Of a stretch of 64,000 nt of DNA, positions 1,067 to 23,496 are shown one piece after another. The DNA lies in assembly GCA_028281535.1 (NCBI GenBank), contig JANQJS010000019.1:62001-126000 (forward strand). Reading direction: 5' to 3'. How positions within the stretch are numbered: position 1 is the first letter of the stretch; every line of letters begins with the position of its first letter. This stretch comes from Sedimentisphaerales bacterium (GTDB lineage Bacteria > Planctomycetota > Phycisphaerae > Sedimentisphaerales > SM23-30). A model generated the notes under the pieces. The model made no database searches and was not told the origin of the DNA. It worked only from the letters and a program-made list of their open reading frames with translations. Made by a program: the position numbers and the translations under genes.

Positions 1067-3316
1067 ATGTTGAAAAAAAATATCCTGTTATTATTTGTTG
1101 TTGGATTGCTATGTAATATCTGTCTGCCCCAACATGCCCATGCCGCTGATGAAGCCTATGGTGGTGGCAGTGGCACGATCCTTGATCCTTATTTGATTTA
1201 TACCGCGGAAAACCTGCAGAAAATTGGTAAAAATCAAGATGATTGGGACAAGCATTTCAAGCTCATGTCAGATATTGATATGAAGAAATTTACCGGAACG
1301 AAATTTAATATTATTGGTCGAAGTGCGACGAATGCGTTTACCGGCGTGTTTGATGGCAATCAGAAAGTCATTATCAACTTCAATTATAAAACAGCGACGG
1401 CAAATGAGTATGTAGGATTATTTGGCGTCGTCGGCGATTTGGTGGATGGCGGCTTGATCTTTGACTTGGGATTTGTCGATGTCGACCTGGATGCGATTAA
1501 TGCCTCAGCTGTGGGAAGCTTGGTAGGGTTTTTACAGAAAGGAACCATAGAACGCTGTTTTGTTTCCAGTGGCATTGTAAGTAATACTGATTTTGTCGGT
1601 GGCTTAGTCGGCGCCAACAGCGGTTCGATTTTTCAAAGTTATGCGGCTTGTAAAGTGTTAGGGAATGTGCAGGTGGGGGGATTTGTCGGTTCACAGCAAG
1701 CTGGGCTGATTCAAAATTGCTATTCACAAGGAAATGTTACAGGTGAAGATTTTGTCGGTGGTTTCGCCGGGGATCAATTTGAGTTTAGCAGTTTGATAAA
1801 TTGTTATTCATCTGGAAAAGTGAATGCTTTTGCTTTGGTTACCAATAATTTTGGTGGTTTGGTCGGTACCAATGAAGGTGAAATCATCGATTGTTATTGG
1901 GATAAACAGAAAAGCGATTTTGACAATATGTGCGGTACACAACCCAATGATGGCGTTGGCTGTAAAAACAGTAATGGGCAATCGACCAATAAAATGCAGC
2001 TCGAAGATACCTTTGAGAATTGGAATTTTGATTCACCGATTTGGACGATTGATGATGATTTTTTATATCCGCAACTTTGGTGGGATGCAACCAATCTGAC
2101 GACCATTTCGTTTGATCTGACCCCACAGCAATTAATCAATCCGGTGACATCGGATGCATCAGGTGATGGAAGACTCATTTTAAATACAGATACACAAGAG
2201 TTAACCTGGGATATAGATCTTTCCGATTTAACGGATGGCGATGGTTCTGTTTCATCAGCACATTTCTTTGGACCAGCAGAATCTGGACAAACGGCATCCT
2301 CTCAGGTTGATATATTGACCAATAGTCAATCGCTTACTGATTTATCGAGTGTCAGTCCTGTTCAATTAACGACGACACAATCCAATGAAATTTTAGGCGG
2401 CTTGTGGTACGCTCAAATTAGTACCACTGCATTTGGTGATGGAGAATTGCGTGGGCAAGTGAATCGAGATGAAACGATTACTTTGGATGCTGTCGCCGTT
2501 AAAGCTGGAAAAAGTCGCGATATTCCCCAGGATTCAGTGAAGATTGAGGGCAAACTTTATTCCAGTATCCAGAAGGCCAATGTGGATGATCTGGTGTTTG
2601 CTCAGGATATGTGCGTGATCGTGAATAATGTTGACCCGAATAATAATATCGTCACCACTATTTTGACTGACCAGTTTACCTTGAATACCAATCCTGATAC
2701 GTTACGAAATAGCCAGAAATTCAGTTACAAACGAGATAAAAACAGTAATGGCCCCATCGAAAAAATGAGCATTGATTTTACGTTGAACACTTTTGAGATT
2801 AGTGGCAAAAAAATATCTTTGAGCGGATTGCAATTACCATTTTCTGTGACGATTAAATTTGGTATCTATTCTGGTGTTGGAATGGTTGATGATGCTAACG
2901 CTGAAATTGTGAACAAAGGAAAACCTTTACCGATTTGTCTTTTGTCAGGCTCAGCTGATGCCGTTAGTATTGATAAAGCTAAGGTGAAATCTGGCAAGAA
3001 AGGCGATTCACTCAATGCCAGCGGTGGACTTTCAGCTGCTCAAGCGGTAGATTTTACCGCCGAGGCGTTGACGGTGAAGTGGGGTGGTTTCACCGAAGTA
3101 ATCCCAGCAGGCAATTTTACCAATAAGAAAGGCCAGAAGTTTTCTTATAAGAAACCCAAAGAGGGGGCTGGGGCGATTTCGAAAATGGATATCGATCTGG
3201 ATAAATGTAGCATCAAGTTATCCATAAAGGATGCCACGTCTCTTGATAAAGAAGGAAATGTCCTTTTCGAAATAAGTTCAGATAATTTTTCAGCTACCGA
3301 TACGATAATTTTTTAG
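1067..3316 (+). CDS. Secreted GLUG-repeat and CHRD-domain protein with paralogous C-terminal module
   Basis: This 749-residue protein has a signal peptide (about 1-27, ending AHA-A). An N-terminal block GGGSGTxxDPYLIY resembles the start of many surface proteins with right-handed beta-helices. About residues 145-275 are GLUG-type repeats (GGLVGxNxGxIxxSYAxxxV). About 345-470 match a CHRD domain, with the signatures SSAHFFGPA and GELRGQV. About 475-749 are the two-repeat module shared with the genes on either side. GLUG repeats occur in adhesins and IgA-protease-like surface proteins, and CHRD domains occur in chordin and bacterial extracellular proteins. The role is probably extracellular or cell-surface, substrate unknown. 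A related protein with the same N-terminal block starts at 63659. Confidence 0.85.
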   Translation: MLKKNILLLFVVGLLCNICLPQHAHAADEAYGGGSGTILDPYLIYTAENLQKIGKNQDDWDKHFKLMSDIDMKKFTGTKFNIIGRSATNAFTGVFDGNQKVIINFNYKTATANEYVGLFGVVGDLVDGGLIFDLGFVDVDLDAINASAVGSLVGFLQKGTIERCFVSSGIVSNTDFVGGLVGANSGSIFQSYAACKVLGNVQVGGFVGSQQAGLIQNCYSQGNVTGEDFVGGFAGDQFEFSSLINCYSSGKVNAFALVTNNFGGLVGTNEGEIIDCYWDKQKSDFDNMCGTQPNDGVGCKNSNGQSTNKMQLEDTFENWNFDSPIWTIDDDFLYPQLWWDATNLTTISFDLTPQQLINPVTSDASGDGRLILNTDTQELTWDIDLSDLTDGDGSVSSAHFFGPAESGQTASSQVDILTNSQSLTDLSSVSPVQLTTTQSNEILGGLWYAQISTTAFGDGELRGQVNRDETITLDAVAVKAGKSRDIPQDSVKIEGKLYSSIQKANVDDLVFAQDMCVIVNNVDPNNNIVTTILTDQFTLNTNPDTLRNSQKFSYKRDKNSNGPIEKMSIDFTLNTFEISGKKISLSGLQLPFSVTIKFGIYSGVGMVDDANAEIVNKGKPLPICLLSGSADAVSIDKAKVKSGKKGDSLNASGGLSAAQAVDFTAEALTVKWGGFTEVIPAGNFTNKKGQKFSYKKPKEGAGAISKMDIDLDKCSIKLSIKDATSLDKEGNVLFEISSDNFSATDTIIF

Positions 3317-4775: not shown

Positions 4776-6134
4776 TTAATTGGTTTCTTGTATCGTTTTT
4801 GACAGGCTTTCCAGGGCGGGTCGCGTTCTAATAAATCCTTTGCATTGTTTGTATGCCTGGGAAAATTGATTATCCAGCTCTAGCAATTTCTCTAACTGTT
4901 CTGATTTGATTTTTGCATCTTCTTGCCAAAGCTCATCCAGGTTTCCAGAAACGGTGCGATCACTATTGCTGGTTAATTGACTAAAGAGAACGCTGAGTTT
5001 GCCATAATGTTTGCTATCCATCGTTTCTTTTATGTCAGGTTCTACGCCCCATTCATCTGCATTGGGTAATTTATGGACGCATCGTCCTTTGGGCAAATAA
5101 TAATAATCGGTTGTCATTTTTACAGCGGCACCTGAATCTTGAAGTTTAAATAGTCGCTGTACAGACCCTTTGCCCCAGGACCGCTCACCAATAATTACAG
5201 CTCGATTGTGGTCCTGAAGGGCACCTGCGACGATTTCTGCCGCACTGGCACTGGCTTGATTGATGAGAACAGCCATATGGAATTTAGGATAAGTGCTACT
5301 GGAGGTGGCTCTTTCAGCTTTTGCCATAGAGTGAGCACCTCGGGTAGAGACAATGACTCCTTCGTCAATCAATGAATCAACAATTTCGACGGCACTGGAC
5401 ATGAGTCCCCCTGGGTTTCTGCGAAGATCCAAAATAATGGCCTGGCAATTTTTGGCTAAGCAGTGATCAATGGCGTCTGTAAATTCCTGTGCACTGTTTT
5501 CAGTGAATTGAGATAGTCGGACATAGGCGATTTTTTTCTCATCATCCAGAATGTAATCCCATTGGTTATCGACGCTATTTCGTCGCCAACCCGTTACACT
5601 GGGTAAGCTGATTTTCTGGCGCTTAATCTTAATCTCTTCTTCAGTATTATCTTCTCTAAGAACTTTTAATATGACTTCAGTATTGGCTGGGCCTGTGAGT
5701 TCCTTTACAGCTTGTGTGTCACTGATATTATTAGTGTCTTTGCCATCAATTTGTAAAATAACATCTCCAGCTCGTATGCCTGCCTTATCTGCTGGAGAGC
5801 CTTCAAAAGGGCTGATAATTTTTAGTTGCCCATCTCGATTTTCGATTCCCACACCGATACCTTCATAAGAGCCTGTTGTCATTTTCTGATAGTTATCAAC
5901 GTCTATTGCTGGAATAAATTCTGAATGCATATCAAGTTCATGCAGGATGCCATTTATAGCTCCTGCGACCAGTTTGTCGCTATCAATTTCTTTGACGTAA
6001 TGCTTTTGGATGAGATCAATGGCATCAACCAATGGATCGAATAATGTGTAATCTACTTGTGATGCTTTGAGTTGCAATCCGGTGCCGCAAACGAATATCA
6101 ATAATGTCACTAGGCAGCGATGATATGAGATCAT
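4776..6134 (-). CDS. C-terminal processing peptidase (S41 family, CtpA-like)
   Basis: The ATG at 6134 is chosen over the upstream in-frame start at 6167 because GGAGG lies about 10 nt before it and the upstream start would overlap the preceding gene. The product is about 452 residues. A signal peptide or anchor (LVTLLIFVCGTGLQLKAS) is followed by an N-terminal helical segment, a PDZ domain (YEGIGVGIENRDGQL, DKAGIRAGDVILQIDG) and an S41 catalytic core with RRNPGGLMSSAV, the Ser-bearing SASAAEIVAGAL and the Lys-bearing WGKGSVQ. Family members cleave protein C-termini in the periplasm with a Ser/Lys dyad, and both residues are present. It is the last gene of the envelope operon beginning at 9595. 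A second S41 protease lies at 11553-13232. Confidence 0.93.
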   Translation of the reverse strand: MISYHRCLVTLLIFVCGTGLQLKASQVDYTLFDPLVDAIDLIQKHYVKEIDSDKLVAGAINGILHELDMHSEFIPAIDVDNYQKMTTGSYEGIGVGIENRDGQLKIISPFEGSPADKAGIRAGDVILQIDGKDTNNISDTQAVKELTGPANTEVILKVLREDNTEEEIKIKRQKISLPSVTGWRRNSVDNQWDYILDDEKKIAYVRLSQFTENSAQEFTDAIDHCLAKNCQAIILDLRRNPGGLMSSAVEIVDSLIDEGVIVSTRGAHSMAKAERATSSSTYPKFHMAVLINQASASAAEIVAGALQDHNRAVIIGERSWGKGSVQRLFKLQDSGAAVKMTTDYYYLPKGRCVHKLPNADEWGVEPDIKETMDSKHYGKLSVLFSQLTSNSDRTVSGNLDELWQEDAKIKSEQLEKLLELDNQFSQAYKQCKGFIRTRPALESLSKTIQETN

Positions 6135-6156
6135 AGTGGATGATCCTCCAATTGAT

Positions 6157-6735
6157 TTAGGATGCATTTTTCTTTTTATGGACCATTTTTAGTACATGTA
6201 ATCGTCCACGAGGTGTATGCGTGCGATACCAGACAATAAGTTTCAAGCCAATGAAGTAACCTATTACTGCAATTATAATTCCTATTAAAGCGCTTCCTAA
6301 ACAAAGATCCAACCCTATGGTCCAGGCAAGGTCAACGACTTTATGCCAGAAATCTGCTTGGGTCATTTGTGTAAAAATACTATCTGATTCCATGTATTTA
6401 TTAAAATAATTGCCGAATTGGGAATAGTTATAATAGGGGCGTTCTGTAAACAGATTTAAAAACTTATTGCCGAGCCAGTAGTTAGAAAAATAAATCGGAA
6501 TAATGGTAAAAGGGTTGGATAACCAAACCATGGGAATGCCCACTGCCGCATTTGCTCGTAATGCTGGCGCAAGAATTAATACCAAAAACATTTGAATACC
6601 AACGGTTGGTGTCCAGGCGATGAATAATCCCAAGGCGATTCCTAATGCCAATCGCTGAGGTGTATCATCAATGTGCAATACACGGTAGACGATAAACCGC
6701 CTAATTCGAACAATCATTTTTTTGATTTGCCACAT
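6157..6735 (-). CDS. DUF2062 membrane protein
   Basis: This 192-residue protein matches the DUF2062 pattern: the N-terminal segment RLALGIALGLFIAWTPTVG, then an amphipathic/transmembrane stretch with NPFT. Three to four hydrophobic segments are visible at about residues 28-50, 60-80 and 140-165. The family is often found beside glycosyltransferases and LPS genes, but its biochemical role is not established. The gene sits 6 bp downstream of the heptosyltransferase-like gene and just upstream of the S41 protease, so it is part of the same envelope operon. Confidence 0.85.
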   Translation of the reverse strand: MWQIKKMIVRIRRFIVYRVLHIDDTPQRLALGIALGLFIAWTPTVGIQMFLVLILAPALRANAAVGIPMVWLSNPFTIIPIYFSNYWLGNKFLNLFTERPYYNYSQFGNYFNKYMESDSIFTQMTQADFWHKVVDLAWTIGLDLCLGSALIGIIIAVIGYFIGLKLIVWYRTHTPRGRLHVLKMVHKKKNAS

Positions 6736-6741
6736 AGAAAT

Positions 6742-7791
6742 TTAATTCAATAGTTTCTTAATCGTTTTTTCAACCTGATCTACGCTGATGGTATCAATGT
6801 TGTGTCTCTGGTCTTTACTATATCGGTGTTTACGAGGAATGGATGCACCTGCTTGCACAACCTTTTCGAGGTGACCATAAGGGCCAACAATCGCAGGGTT
6901 GGTCGGGCCGTAAATACCGATTAATGGGGTTGATAATGTCGCTCCAATATGGAGCGGACCTGAGTCATTTCCCACGATCAGTTTCGCAGAAGACATTATC
7001 GGAATTATTTGTTGTAAGTTGGTTTTATTCACCAAGTTAACAATTTCTCCACTCGTAAGCTCTTCAAGCTGGTTGGCTAATTCGGTTTCCACAGGGCCTG
7101 CCCCTAAGACCACTGTCTTAAAATCATAGTCGTTTTTTAACATTTGGGCAAGTTTTGCATAATTTTCTATGGGCCACTGCTTGCTAGCTTCTGTTCCACC
7201 AATAAGTTGTATCACATAATTATCTTTACTGCTTAAACCATGCTGATTGTAAATGTCTGCCAATGCAGCATCATGTATTACTCCATCAGATAGACGAAAG
7301 TTCTTTTTAAGATCGTTAAAACCCAATGCCTTAGAAAATCGCCAAAGACTATCGACAATATGCTCGTTTTTAGCGACCTCAATTTTATGAGTGTAGAAAA
7401 GCGTTGCGCCTTCCCGAGCATTCGTAAAGCCGAGGCGTGTTTTTGCTCTGGTTGCTTTAGTCACTAAACCACTGCGGAATAAACCTTGAAGATCAACCAC
7501 CAGATCAAATTCTTTTTGACGTATTTCTTTTAAGAAATGAAAAAAGGCTTTTGTGGCTTTAAATTCTCGTCCAAATTTTCCGAAGAGTTTTCGGTCAAAT
7601 AATATTTTTTCATCCAGTCCTGGTAGATATTCAATCATTCCAGCACAGTCGGGTCGAATCAGCCAGGAAATTCGAGCCTGAGGAAATTTTTCTCGCAAAC
7701 CATGAAAAATAGGAACGGCTCTAACCACGTCTCCCAAACTACTGGGTTTGATAATGAGAATATTGTTATAGATTTGTTTTTCTAAAGACAA
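6742..7791 (-). CDS. Glycosyltransferase family 9 (ADP-heptose:LPS heptosyltransferase-like)
   Basis: This 349-residue protein has the GT9 layout. The N-terminal ILIIKPSSLGDVVRAVPIFHGLR forms the first Rossmann strand and the loop typical of WaaC/WaaF/WaaQ. The C-terminal donor-binding half includes QLIGGTEASKQWP, a VVLGAG strand and the hallmark VGNDSGPLHIGATLSTPLIGIYGPTNP. The expected reaction is transfer of a heptose (or related sugar) from a nucleotide donor onto the LPS core at the inner face of the inner membrane. Its neighbours, an InaA/Kdo-kinase-like protein 28 bp upstream and a DUF2062 protein downstream, support a role in LPS core assembly. The exact acceptor cannot be told from sequence. 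Confidence 0.9.
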   Translation of the reverse strand: MSLEKQIYNNILIIKPSSLGDVVRAVPIFHGLREKFPQARISWLIRPDCAGMIEYLPGLDEKILFDRKLFGKFGREFKATKAFFHFLKEIRQKEFDLVVDLQGLFRSGLVTKATRAKTRLGFTNAREGATLFYTHKIEVAKNEHIVDSLWRFSKALGFNDLKKNFRLSDGVIHDAALADIYNQHGLSSKDNYVIQLIGGTEASKQWPIENYAKLAQMLKNDYDFKTVVLGAGPVETELANQLEELTSGEIVNLVNKTNLQQIIPIMSSAKLIVGNDSGPLHIGATLSTPLIGIYGPTNPAIVGPYGHLEKVVQAGASIPRKHRYSKDQRHNIDTISVDQVEKTIKKLLN

Positions 7792-7819: not shown

Positions 7820-9595
7820 TCATGTTGATTCGATGATTTCTTTTGTTTGACAACTTTTTAAGACGTGTTGGCTGACTTCATGCCAAAGCTGATGTCTGGA
7901 TGGTCGATCATATGCTTGTGGCAACGCTAAGAGCCGAATATATGCCGTGAAAGCTCTGACATAGTATCTGGGACCGATTTTTGGGTGTCGCATGATTGAA
8001 ACCGCCAGGCGAATGAGTGCCTCATGTTTTGTTAAGGAGTTAATCGTTTGATCGATGTGAAAACCATCCAGGTCAATGATGTGAAGTCGCCATGACTGAT
8101 CTGGGCGCTGGCTGACGAGAAAATTTTGAGCTTTGGCATCACGAAACCGGCACCCTTTTTTACGAAAATCTGCCAAGATGAGTCCCAATTGTGTGGCAAG
8201 ATCATTATAAATGATGTGTGAGTCTGGCAAATGGTTATCACGAAGTGCGACATGCAGGTTATAGGCGCCTTTGATGCGTTCTGTAATGAGAATACTTTCT
8301 TGTAGGAAAAAACCTTTGCGATGCTCTACAGAAGCCAGTGGCCAAGCGGTATCAATACGACGATGAATCAATGCGTGACCTCTTAACCATTGACGAAAGG
8401 CTTTAGAGGCTCGACAGCTTTGCAGAAAGCCGCGCCAGCCGCTTTTTAGTCGAATATGTTTAACAACTACCTCTAGATCTAAATCTTCAAAGCAGAGCGT
8501 TTTGGCGATAATGGTAGAATGTCCACCTTCTTTAAGTGATTCGCCACCTTCGAGCAATGTTAGCGGGTGATTTAAGAGATTTTTCCATTCTTGGGTCTGA
8601 TAAATCTTTTTACTAGCTTTCGATTCAGGATCTGGGTGTTTGCATTGCAAAAAAACATTTGCTGACCAGTTGTCGTTGAGTTTTATTTTTTTGGCATATT
8701 TACTATTACGTGTTGCGCGTCGATCTTTGCCTTTCCAGATTTTGCGTGAATGCAAATCGGCTTTATGATTGACCAGTGTGTAATAGGTATCGAAATCTTC
8801 CTGGCTGAAATGTTCCAATAAGTTAAGGGATTCCAGATAGGTTTTTATAAAAAGTCTTAAGGGGTCTTGTTGCAGGTGATATCGCATGCCTGCAAAAAGT
8901 GATGCGATATTTGCCATGCGTCGAGGATGTAGCGGGTGAGCTGAGGCGTGCCCACTTCGTTGTTCAAAGTTCACATTATAGAGATCTGTAATGGTGCATT
9001 TCAAACCATTGGGCGTCGAGGTTACAAGAATATTCCCTGAGTGAAGATCGGTATGATCCAGTCCGTTGCAATGCATCTTTGCAATGGTGCGGGCGGTTGC
9101 CATCAATGTTTCGTAAAGAAATTCTTTGTCGACCGGAGGATGTTGCCAAAGGATGTCTTCGAGCGATTGACTTTCGCCAATGGATTCAGTGACTAATAGG
9201 TTAAAAGCTTTTCCTTCAACCCATGCGATGGGTTTGGGAACATCGATGTTTCTTGAGTGTGCCAGATACAGGTCATTGAATTCCATTTTTGCTGGATTCC
9301 CTGCGATGGCTTGTTTTACCATTTGCTGTAGGGTTTCATTGTGATACAGCTTGATATAAATATCCATATCATTATCGCAAATACGATAGACTTGTCGCAT
9401 TGGATTTTTCTTAACTAAAATTGCTTTTGGTTCAATTTCCAGGTTTGCAAAATCAATCATTTCTTTTTTAAGAAATTGACTTCGGTAGGCGGTCAGACAA
9501 TGCCAGGTTAAGCCGCCAATTTGAGTCGCAATCGTGACCGCAGAAATCGGCGAAGGTTGTTTGCGTTTTAGCTTTGTCCTGGACAAGACGCTCAT
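7820..9595 (-). CDS. Tandem lipopolysaccharide-kinase (InaA/WaaP/KdkA-type) protein, two kinase domains
   Basis: This 591-residue protein is about twice the usual length for the family and contains two kinase-like domains. Domain 1 (about 55-260) shows an ATP-lysine candidate in YIKLYH, the catalytic loop HTDLHSGNIL (D183, N188) and the metal-binding TDLYN (D204). Domain 2 (about 345-560) shows VVVKHIRL, the catalytic loop FRDAKAQNFL (D486, N491) and IIDLDGF (D508). They are joined by a basic linker containing GKDRRATRNSKY. Family members phosphorylate Kdo or heptose in the LPS inner core. The next gene, 28 bp downstream, is a GT9 glycosyltransferase, which fits. Both domains keep the catalytic Asp and Asn, so both may be active. 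The two substrates are unknown. Confidence 0.82.
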   Translation of the reverse strand: MSVLSRTKLKRKQPSPISAVTIATQIGGLTWHCLTAYRSQFLKKEMIDFANLEIEPKAILVKKNPMRQVYRICDNDMDIYIKLYHNETLQQMVKQAIAGNPAKMEFNDLYLAHSRNIDVPKPIAWVEGKAFNLLVTESIGESQSLEDILWQHPPVDKEFLYETLMATARTIAKMHCNGLDHTDLHSGNILVTSTPNGLKCTITDLYNVNFEQRSGHASAHPLHPRRMANIASLFAGMRYHLQQDPLRLFIKTYLESLNLLEHFSQEDFDTYYTLVNHKADLHSRKIWKGKDRRATRNSKYAKKIKLNDNWSANVFLQCKHPDPESKASKKIYQTQEWKNLLNHPLTLLEGGESLKEGGHSTIIAKTLCFEDLDLEVVVKHIRLKSGWRGFLQSCRASKAFRQWLRGHALIHRRIDTAWPLASVEHRKGFFLQESILITERIKGAYNLHVALRDNHLPDSHIIYNDLATQLGLILADFRKKGCRFRDAKAQNFLVSQRPDQSWRLHIIDLDGFHIDQTINSLTKHEALIRLAVSIMRHPKIGPRYYVRAFTAYIRLLALPQAYDRPSRHQLWHEVSQHVLKSCQTKEIIEST

Positions 9596-19797: not shown

Positions 19798-21408
19798 CTA
19801 ACTTATGGCGCCGTTGATAGGCTCCTCATCATCTTTCAGATCGGTGACCAGTACATTGGTCGTCAGCATCAAGCCAGCAACACTGGCTGCATTTTGCAAT
19901 GCGGCACGTGATACTTTGGCAGGATCAATAATGCCTGCTTCGAACATGTCGACATATTCGTCTTTTGCAGCATTGTAACCTTTAGCACCTTTTTTCTCTA
20001 ATAATTCAGAGACAATCATGGCGCCATCGCTACCCGCATTTTCTGCAATCTGACGAGTTGGATAGGTCAATGCTTTTGCAATGATATCGAACCCAATCGA
20101 TTCATCGCCTTCGACATCTTTTTGAGCTTTTTTCACTGCGTCAATACTACGCAGATAAGCTACGCCGCCGCCAGGAACGATACCTTCTTCGGTGGCCGCA
20201 CGCGTTGCGTGCAATGCGTCATCCAGCAGGTCTTTGCGTTCTTTCATTTCTACTTCAGTCGCTGCTCCAGCACGAATCACGGCAACACCGCCAGTCAATT
20301 TTGCCAGACGCTCTTGAAGTTTATCACGATCATAATCACTGGTGGTCTTTTCGATTTGTGTTTCGATTTGACCAATCCGAGCGTTAATTTCTTTCTTCTT
20401 TCCGCCACCTTCAACGATGGTGGTGTTATCTTTATCGATCACTACGCGGCGAGCTTGGCCCAACTGAGACACTTCTACAGCTTCCAGTTTGATACCAATA
20501 TCTTCGCTGATCAAAGTACCACCAGTCAAGGTTGCAATATCACCCAACATCGCTTTGCGGCGATCACCAAAGCCAGGAGCTTTGACGGCAGCAATTTTTA
20601 GTACACCGCGAAGCTTATTGATGACCAATGCTGCTAAGGCTTCACCTTCAACATCTTCAGCGATGATCAATAGAGGTTTACCACTGCCCGCGATTTTTTC
20701 CAGCAAGGGAACAATTTCCTGGATGTTGCTGATTTTTTTCTCGTGGATCAAAATATAGCAATCTTCCAGAATCGCTTCCATGGAATCGGTTTTGGTAATG
20801 AAGTAAGGTGACAAAAATCCTTTGTCGAACTGCATACCTTCCACGACTTCCAGCTCGGTTTCGATACCTTTGCCTTCTTCCGCTTCGATGACACCTTTCT
20901 GACCAACTTTTTCCATTGCTTCAGCCAATAATTGACCGATTTCAGGATTGTTGTTGGCAGAAATGGTACCGACTTTAGCGATGTCATTGCTGTCTTTAAC
21001 TTTTTTACTCTGCTTTGCAATGGATTCAACCACTGTAGCAACCGCTTTGTTAATGCCGCGTTGGATGGACATTGGATTCACACCCACGGTAACATGCTTT
21101 AAGCCTTCTTTGAAGATCGCTTCAGCAAGAACCGTTGCGGTTGTTGTACCATCACCAGCGACATCAGACGTTTTGCTGGCAACCTGGTTGACCATTTTTG
21201 CGCCCATGTTCTGGAATGGATCAGATAATTCAATTTCTTTGGAGACACTCACGCCATCTTTAGTGACGCGTGGACTGCCCCAGCTTTTTTGCAATACCAC
21301 GTTACGGCCGGTCGGTCCCATGGTTACTTTCACGGCATCAGCCAATTGTGAAAGTCCTTTCAGGATTTCGCGTTGAGCGGTATCATCAAACATCATTTGT
21401 TTGGCCAT
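19798..21408 (-). CDS. groEL: Chaperonin GroEL, paralogue without GGM tail
   Basis: This 536-residue GroEL is co-directional with groES and the second groEL. Conserved ATP-site and fold landmarks are [50 protein letters not shown] and [14 protein letters not shown]. It ends in [10 protein letters not shown] and lacks the Gly-Met-rich C-terminal repeat typical of housekeeping GroEL, and the N-terminal equatorial stretch is shorter. Such tail-less copies are seen in multi-GroEL bacteria and are often specialised; this is an inference. It is 39 bp downstream of groES and likely shares its transcript. Confidence 0.95.
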
Positions 21409-21789: not shown

Positions 21790-23496
21790 TTACATCATTC
21801 CAGGCATGCCGCCCATACCCGGCATTCCACCCATGCCGCCCATACCCGGCATTCCGCCGCCCATTCCGCCCATGCCACCCATATCTGGCATGCCTTCAGG
21901 ACCACCGGCTCCACCACCTTCAGATGGTTGATCGGTAATGACAGCGTCAGTTGTGAGAAGTAGGCTCGCAACACTTGCTGCATTGGTCAATGCACTGAGA
22001 ACCACTTTGGTAGGATCGATGACACCGGCTTTGACCATGTCTTCGAATTCCAAAGTGTTTGCGTTAAAACCAAAAGCCGCTTTGCCTTTGGCGATTTTAT
22101 GAACGATGACGTTGCCTTCTTCGCCAGCATTAACAGCGATTTGCCAGGCAGGAACTTTCAGTGCGTTGTAAACAACTTCAGCACCGGTTTTTTCGTCACC
22201 TTTGAGTTTAACGTTATTCGCAGCTTCGCGGCAACGAATCAATGCCACGCCACCACCAGGAACGATACCTGATTCGATCGCGGCACGCGTTGCGTGTAGA
22301 GCATCTTCTACGCGAGCTTTGATTTCTTTGAGTTCAACTTCACTGGCAGCACCCACATTGATTTGAGCGACACCACCGGCGAGTTTTGCTAGGCGTTCTT
22401 GAAGTTTTTCTTTATCGTAATCGCTCGTGGTAATTCCGATTTCATTACGGATTTGATCGATACGAGCTTTGATGTCTTTGGTTTTGCCAGCACCTTGGAC
22501 GATGATGGTGTTATCGCCATCAATGGTTACTTTTTGTGCAGTACCCAAATCTGATACTTTCATGGATTCTAAATCTTCACCCAAATCTTTGAATAAAGGC
22601 TTGGCACCGGTCAAGATAGCAATGTCTTCCAACATCGCTTTACGACGATCGCCGTAACCTGGTGCTTTGACAGCACAAACATTGATGATACCGCGAAGTT
22701 TATTAACCACCAAGGTTGCCAACGCTTCACCTTCGATATCTTCAGCGATAATCAAAAGTGGCTTTTTGTTCTTGGCTAATTCTTCCATGATGGGGATTAG
22801 TTTTTGTACGGTTGAGATTTTTTCTTCATGAATCAGGATCAATGGGTTTTCCATTTCGCAAAGCATGTTGTCCTGATCGGTAATGAAGTTAGGAGAAAGG
22901 TAACCGCGATCGAATTGCATACCTTCAACGACATCCACGTAGGTATCAAGGCTTTTGCTTTCTTCCACGGTAATGACGCCATCGTTGCCAACTTTTTCAA
23001 AAGCATCGGCCATGGTTTGACCAATTTCTTTATCATTGTTGGCACTGATCGATGCGATGTTAATGATGTCATCTTTGTCTTTGACAGGCTTGCTGAGTTT
23101 TTCCAGCTCATCTTTGACGGCATCGACCGCTTTGTGAATACCACGGCCAATCGCCATAGCATCAGCACCGGCGGTAATATTGCGGAATGCTTCTTTAAAA
23201 ATCGCTTCGGTGAGAACTGTTGAAGTCGTGGTTCCGTCACCAGCCAAATCTGAGGTTTTGCTAGCGGCTTCTTTAACCAACTTGGCACCTAGATTTTCGG
23301 CTTTGTCAGCCAATTCGATTTCTTCTGCGACGGTCACACCATCTTTGGTTACTGTTGGGCCACCCCAACCTTTGTCCAAAACTACATTTCTGCCTCTTGG
23401 GCCAAGGGTGCTTTTGACCGCACTGGCCAGTTTTTCAACACCTGCGAGCAGAGCCGTTCGAGCATCACTCTCAAACGCTAAGTCCTTTGCCGCCAT
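21790..23496 (-). CDS. groEL: Chaperonin GroEL, housekeeping-type with GGM tail
   Basis: The 568 residues show [54 protein letters not shown] and [14 protein letters not shown]. The C-terminus is a long Gly/Met-rich tail ([16 protein letters not shown] type), longer than the usual GGM tail. The tail lies inside the folding cage and is typical of the main GroEL. It is the first gene of the operon; translation starts about 68 nt after the start point predicted from a perfect sigma-54 promoter at 23576-23590. Confidence 0.97.

Follow-up and report, generated by a model that had tools for sequence, protein, structure and literature searches.

A tandem kinase of the Kdo/WaaP family linked to a heptosyltransferase in Planctomycetota

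Introduction

Can a single bacterial protein combine two lipopolysaccharide (LPS) kinases, and which inner-core sugars would such a pair act on? The question is raised by an open reading frame (ORF) in the window, the whole 64,000-nucleotide stretch of Sedimentisphaerales DNA analysed here, which belongs to a genome of 4.44 Mb that is 99.4% complete. Our literature search, which included planctomycete LPS and InaA/Kdo kinases, returned no study of planctomycete heptose or Kdo kinases, and none on heptosyltransferase–kinase fusions or two-domain heptose kinases. Lipid A genes, those of planctomycetes included, are covered by PMC3087551, the accessible text of which does not include these kinases. 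Here we report that the tandem is real, intact and widespread rather than unique; its interesting parts are a link to heptosyltransferase I and a second domain that lacks the helix-C glutamate.

Domain architecture and predicted fold

The original prediction read the locus as one protein with two LPS-kinase domains, and this is borne out by an intact ORF with an ATG start (7820..9595, minus strand; 591 amino acids) that matches Pfam family PF06293 (Kdo/WaaP) in two stretches, with an E-value of 2.3e-26 and 93.0 bits for the whole protein. Scored separately in the genome search, these stretches reached 53.8 and 44.4 bits, each alone above the cut-off of 21.3. Domain 1 (approximately residues 20–300; 8696..9538, minus strand) carries K82, the helix-C glutamate E105, D183, N188 and D204; domain 2 (approximately residues 305–585; 7841..8683, minus strand) carries K379, D486, K488, N491 and D508. 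All six predicted catalytic and metal-site residues (D183/N188/D204 and D486/N491/D508) are therefore present and, with K82 and K379 as the ATP lysines, each domain contains the triad of a Kdo/WaaP kinase site (K82/D183/D204 and K379/D486/D508). These ten residues are invariant in an alignment of six full-length relatives, the window protein among them. Loss of the catalytic Lys, Asp or DFG Asp, by which a pseudokinase is recognized, is seen in neither window domain. The ATP site of domain 2 is nevertheless not fully canonical, because Q402 occupies the position of the helix-C glutamate.

The protein scores 67.4 bits against the Kdo kinase (KdkA) model NF002475, for which the cut-off is 142 (35.9 and 35.5 bits for the single domains), and 42.6 bits against the WaaP/RfaP heptose(I) kinase model NF011703, for which it is 170. 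Since both NCBIfam cut-offs are missed, the tandem is a member of the superfamily but a proven member of neither KdkA nor WaaP. AlphaFold2 predicts a kinase fold in each domain, with pLDDT 81.2 and pTM 0.76 for the whole protein and pLDDT 93.6 and pTM 0.90 for domain 2 alone (27-row alignment). WaaP (6dfl) ranks first in Foldseek among solved structures for both the whole model and domain 2, and is also the best sequence-profile match in the PDB (E 1e-11). In the structural alignments (VIA), domain 1 gives Z 17.5 with WaaP over residues 29–288 (228 residues, rmsd 5.0) versus Z 18.5 with PRPK (219 residues, rmsd 3.8), and domain 2 gives Z 19.6 with WaaP (234 residues, rmsd 3.9) versus Z 18.4 with PRPK (226 residues, rmsd 4.9). 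The predicted folds of both domains resemble that of Pseudomonas WaaP, although the PRPK/Bud32 scores tie with those for WaaP (domain 1) or come close to them (domain 2), so that the fold leaves a protein substrate possible.

Distribution and history of the tandem

Within the family of the window genome, matches were found in 11 of 13 genomes and both domains lie in one ORF in nine, three of these ORFs (L005, L006 and L009) being cut by the end of the fetched stretch. The other four genomes comprise one with a fragment only, one (G002) in which domain 1 is fused to a GT9 glycosyltransferase, and two without any match. Order-wide, matches occur in 117 of 148 genomes. A contig scan with the single window protein as query returned no named relatives; with a six-row alignment it returned 43 loci, 26 of which have both domains in one ORF. 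The named relatives are mostly Planctomycetota, with Phycisphaerae bacterium SM23_30 as the best-scoring named match (38%), followed by Sedimentisphaerales, Gemmataceae, Planctomycetaceae, Kuenenia and the isolate Zavarzinella formosa; Desulfobacterales and a small number of other phyla contribute weaker matches. Phylum-wide, a hand count among the matches listed, for which part of the ORFs were read individually, gives a tandem ORF in at least 26 of 118 genomes. This figure comprises 21 ORFs in which two listed matches cover separate domains and five in which one match spans both; G156 (internal stops), G193 and G252 (one domain in two pieces) and G184 (partial) were left out.

The premise that Kdo and heptose kinases are normally single-domain proteins consequently holds for E. 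coli WaaP and WaaY but fails for Planctomycetota (9/13, 26/43 and at least 26/118), in which the tandem is old and widespread and not unusual. The original prediction had also treated membership of a common annotated family as grounds for abandoning it: the fusion is indeed common, but none of the curated models names the tandem kinase.

Trees of the separate domains were built as a quick version with 132 rows and a careful version with 52 rows; the latter were chosen from 106 after 26 of the 132 had been dropped for long branches, short length or duplication. As had been suggested for checking the fusion, each domain was thereby placed on its own, and N-terminal copies group with N-terminal copies and C-terminal with C-terminal. 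In the 52-row tree the window domain 1 joins domain 1 of five relatives, and the window domain 2 joins domain 2 of relatives, each with support of 100/99. Within the order, proteins that have domain 2 alone nest in the domain 2 tree beside the group of the window (100/97, in a 13-row set that includes the tandems L049–L051). A single clade of all domain 1 copies, or of all domain 2 copies, is not rejected (p-AU 0.5) but has low support (39/20). The shared Pfam family of the two domains could be taken to mean that one kinase domain was recently duplicated in tandem into redundant copies, but this is highly improbable: a sister relationship of the two window domains is rejected (p-AU 3.9e-6), each clusters with its counterpart in other tandems, and the two differ at helix C and at position +2 of the catalytic loop.

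We asked whether stand-alone kinases of 278–285 amino acids (L091, L092 and L094), encoded in genomes that have domain 2 only, might be a domain 1 that had been displaced. Their place in the tree is elsewhere and the helix-C glutamate is missing from them, which suggests that domain 1 was lost there rather than moved. The simplest reading of these sequence relationships is that the tandem is old, that sister families would then have lost domain 1, and that fusions to GT9 would have arisen separately.

Genomic context

Directly downstream of the kinase lies a companion that the original prediction did not mention, a GT9 heptosyltransferase gene (6742..7791, minus strand; PF01075, E 5.3e-47). 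Its product scores 178.0 bits with TIGR02193 (heptosyltransferase I; cut-off 185.3) and 143.7 bits with TIGR02195 (type II; cut-off 134.6), and its best E. coli match is WaaC (117 bits; WaaF, 103 bits). It is nearest to type I (WaaC-like), which is likewise the top-scoring type for the GT9 domains of three relatives. The next genes encode a DUF2062 protein (6157..6735, minus strand), which follows GT9 in the same order in relatives, and an S41 C-terminal processing peptidase (4776..6167, minus strand). The order kinase, GT9, DUF2062 is repeated in many loci, and the S41 peptidase is found further along in L043 and L045. Elsewhere in the window, a 749-residue ORF with GLUG and CHRD domains (1067-3316, plus strand) has a partial relative downstream of the kinase in L046.

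In the window's family, GT9 lies downstream in all eight tandem loci with readable downstream DNA (L001–L008), and in two genomes the unit is a single kinase–kinase–GT9 chain, of 957 amino acids in G007 (L003) and 997 in G006 (L004). These chains recur in named Sedimentisphaerales genomes as L045 and L047. Outside this family but within the order, GT9 accompanies domain 2 at 19 of 19 fetched loci (L020–L038), fused to it in six (L022, L023, L026, L027, L031 and L034) and adjacent in 13. The double kinase of Planctomycetia adjoins GT4 instead of GT9 at the two loci read (L063 and L064, the latter from Zavarzinella formosa).

A 648-residue ORF in G002 (contig C120; L010/L097) joins a degenerate domain 1 to an apparently intact heptosyltransferase I. 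Its domain 1 shows helix-C E to A, catalytic D to N and N to K changes, and the genome search found no domain 2 of the window type in G002. A degenerate domain 1 on GT9 without domain 2 implies that the unit can decay and is not indispensable. The same genome has a 792-residue ORF with three kinase stretches that adjoins a WaaP-type gene (contig C79, 1637-4012, minus strand; L096).

The genome that holds the window contains LpxC, one KdtA match and six GT9 matches. On contig C22, a run of genes encodes LpxK, a GSU2086-family protein, HldE, GmhB, a heptosyltransferase II–WaaP-type kinase fusion (L039/L124; 7829-9799, plus strand; TIGR02195 159.1, cut-off 134.6) and a further glycosyltransferase. 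Because genes for lipid A, Kdo transfer and ADP-heptose are present, this organism should make the compounds on which an inner-core kinase would act. A GT9–WaaP-type fusion like that of C22 was also seen in G146 (L090). The window further contains two adjoining chaperonin (Cpn60/GroEL) genes (19798-21408 and 21790-23496, both minus strand), followed by a DnaJ gene and with a ClpB/ClpC-type AAA gene alongside on the opposite strand.

Differences between the two domains

Residues were counted in an alignment of 106 domains. In the double proteins, domain 1 has K, helix-C E, D, N and D in every copy (24/24), whereas domain 2 has K in 25/25, catalytic D in 24/25, N in 25/25 and the metal D in 25/25, but the helix-C E in 0/25. 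All four of K, D, N and D occur together in 24/24 copies of domain 1 and 24/25 of domain 2, L075 having a D to N change at the catalytic position of domain 2. Single or GT9-fused copies of domain 2 keep K, D, N and D in 20/20 and the glutamate in 0/20, and a separate alignment of domain 2 shows the four residues in 27/27. Two positions after the catalytic Asp, domain 1 has H and domain 2 has K throughout the sets compared.

The glycine-loop lysine K355 was considered as a substitute for the missing glutamate, which would be a WNK-like arrangement. It is invariant in domain 2 (27/27, and 58/58 in a wider set), but at that alignment position 25 of 32 copies of domain 1 also have K, and E. coli WaaP has R; being a general family feature, it was dropped as an explanation.

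The asymmetry extends beyond the window protein. Tandems of approximately 465 amino acids in the same order have the helix-C glutamate in the N-terminal half (7/7) and lack it in the C-terminal half (7/7), and in the Desulfobacterales loci L073 and L084 a gene for a glutamate-bearing kinase is followed by one for a glutamate-less kinase, as separate neighbours. These cases suggest a general theme in which two unlike kinases have long been paired, as separate or as fused proteins.

Proposed role and alternatives

In our view, the window protein fairly probably acts as a tandem kinase of the LPS inner core in Planctomycetota (Phycisphaerae), partnering heptosyltransferase I and using its product or its acceptor; the substrate, the sites, the activity of each domain and the coupling we infer. 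At the inner membrane, the chain is predicted to bind either Kdo-lipid A or Hep-Kdo-lipid A and, next to the transferase responsible for the first heptose, to transfer phosphate from ATP onto that heptose and/or Kdo. Domain 2 would be the steady partner of heptosyltransferase I, probably active despite the absent glutamate. Domain 1, the more canonical of the two kinases, would act on a different position or sugar and would have been lost by sister families. The second heptose seems to be served by the separate heptosyltransferase II–WaaP fusion on C22. It is possible that the fused pair phosphorylates two sites. Points that count against this reading as a whole are the low KdkA and RfaP model scores, the PRPK/Bud32 fold ties, the glutamate-less domain 2, the GT4 neighbour in Planctomycetia and the decayed unit in G002.

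It is unlikely, in our estimate, that only one domain is catalytic and that domain 2 is a pseudokinase or scaffold which positions domain 1 and the heptosyltransferase in a JAK-like manner. Such a role would fit the absence of the glutamate from all copies counted (0/25 and 0/20) and the additional D to N change in L075, and tandem kinase–pseudokinase structures do appear among the Foldseek matches, where they may merely reflect the presence of two kinases per chain. The mutants of P. aeruginosa WaaP bear on both sides of the argument: in the accessible part of PMC6147952, E78A raises EDTA sensitivity 128-fold yet allows growth, unlike K51A, D163A and D188N, so that the WaaP glutamate appears to matter without being absolutely needed. 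Retention of K, D, N and D in all 27 aligned copies argues against a pseudokinase, as does the lack of domain 1 at most fetched loci of the other families, where only the transferase is left to regulate. Because domain 2 persists there beside the transferase, it is better regarded as an enzyme than as a mere regulator of domain 1.

Phosphorylation of a non-LPS target, such as a protein or another envelope glycolipid, is more doubtful still. It would accord with domain 1 fold scores to PRPK/Bud32 that match those to WaaP, with the wide margin by which the named sugar-kinase models are missed, and with DUF2062 and S41 peptidase neighbours that are not LPS enzymes by name. However, fusion or adjacency with heptosyltransferase I recurs, WaaP is the top PDB profile match, and LPS pathway genes are present in the genome.

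Beyond the inner-core kinase that we favor, a broader and tentative proposal, which we hold to be possible but rather less than probable, is that heptose transfer and phosphorylation in the planctomycete core are organized as coupled units, namely kinase–kinase–heptosyltransferase I (a single chain in certain species) and a heptosyltransferase II–kinase chain, and that the key kinase is long-conserved and works without the helix-C glutamate. A transferase and kinases in one chain would make the coupling of inner-core phosphorylation to sugar transfer testable, and a glutamate-less kinase kept across a whole lineage would be a useful case of how far a kinase site can drift and yet stay active.

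Comparison with known systems

The window protein shares with WaaP (RfaP; 6dfl) the Pfam Kdo/WaaP fold, the lysine, the catalytic Asp, the DFG Asp and adjacency to core heptosyltransferases. Unlike it, WaaP has one domain, groups apart from both window domains in the tree and, from the alignment and the accessible part of PMC6147952, has His where both window domains have the metal Asn. KdkA gives the best NCBIfam score of the whole protein, which nevertheless falls far below the KdkA cut-off. KdkA is a single-domain kinase. The approximately 465-residue tandems of the order show the same distribution of the helix-C glutamate, but they are shorter, form separate clades in the tree, and no GT9 fusion was found among them. 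They are perhaps similar to Pseudomonas PA5006, which we take to be a tandem kinase. In the accessible part of PMC8005017, PA5006 is given as a "kinase", beside waaP, wapP and wapQ. The fusion on C22 likewise combines a heptosyltransferase and an LPS kinase in one chain, but has the transferase first, of type II, and a single WaaP-type kinase.
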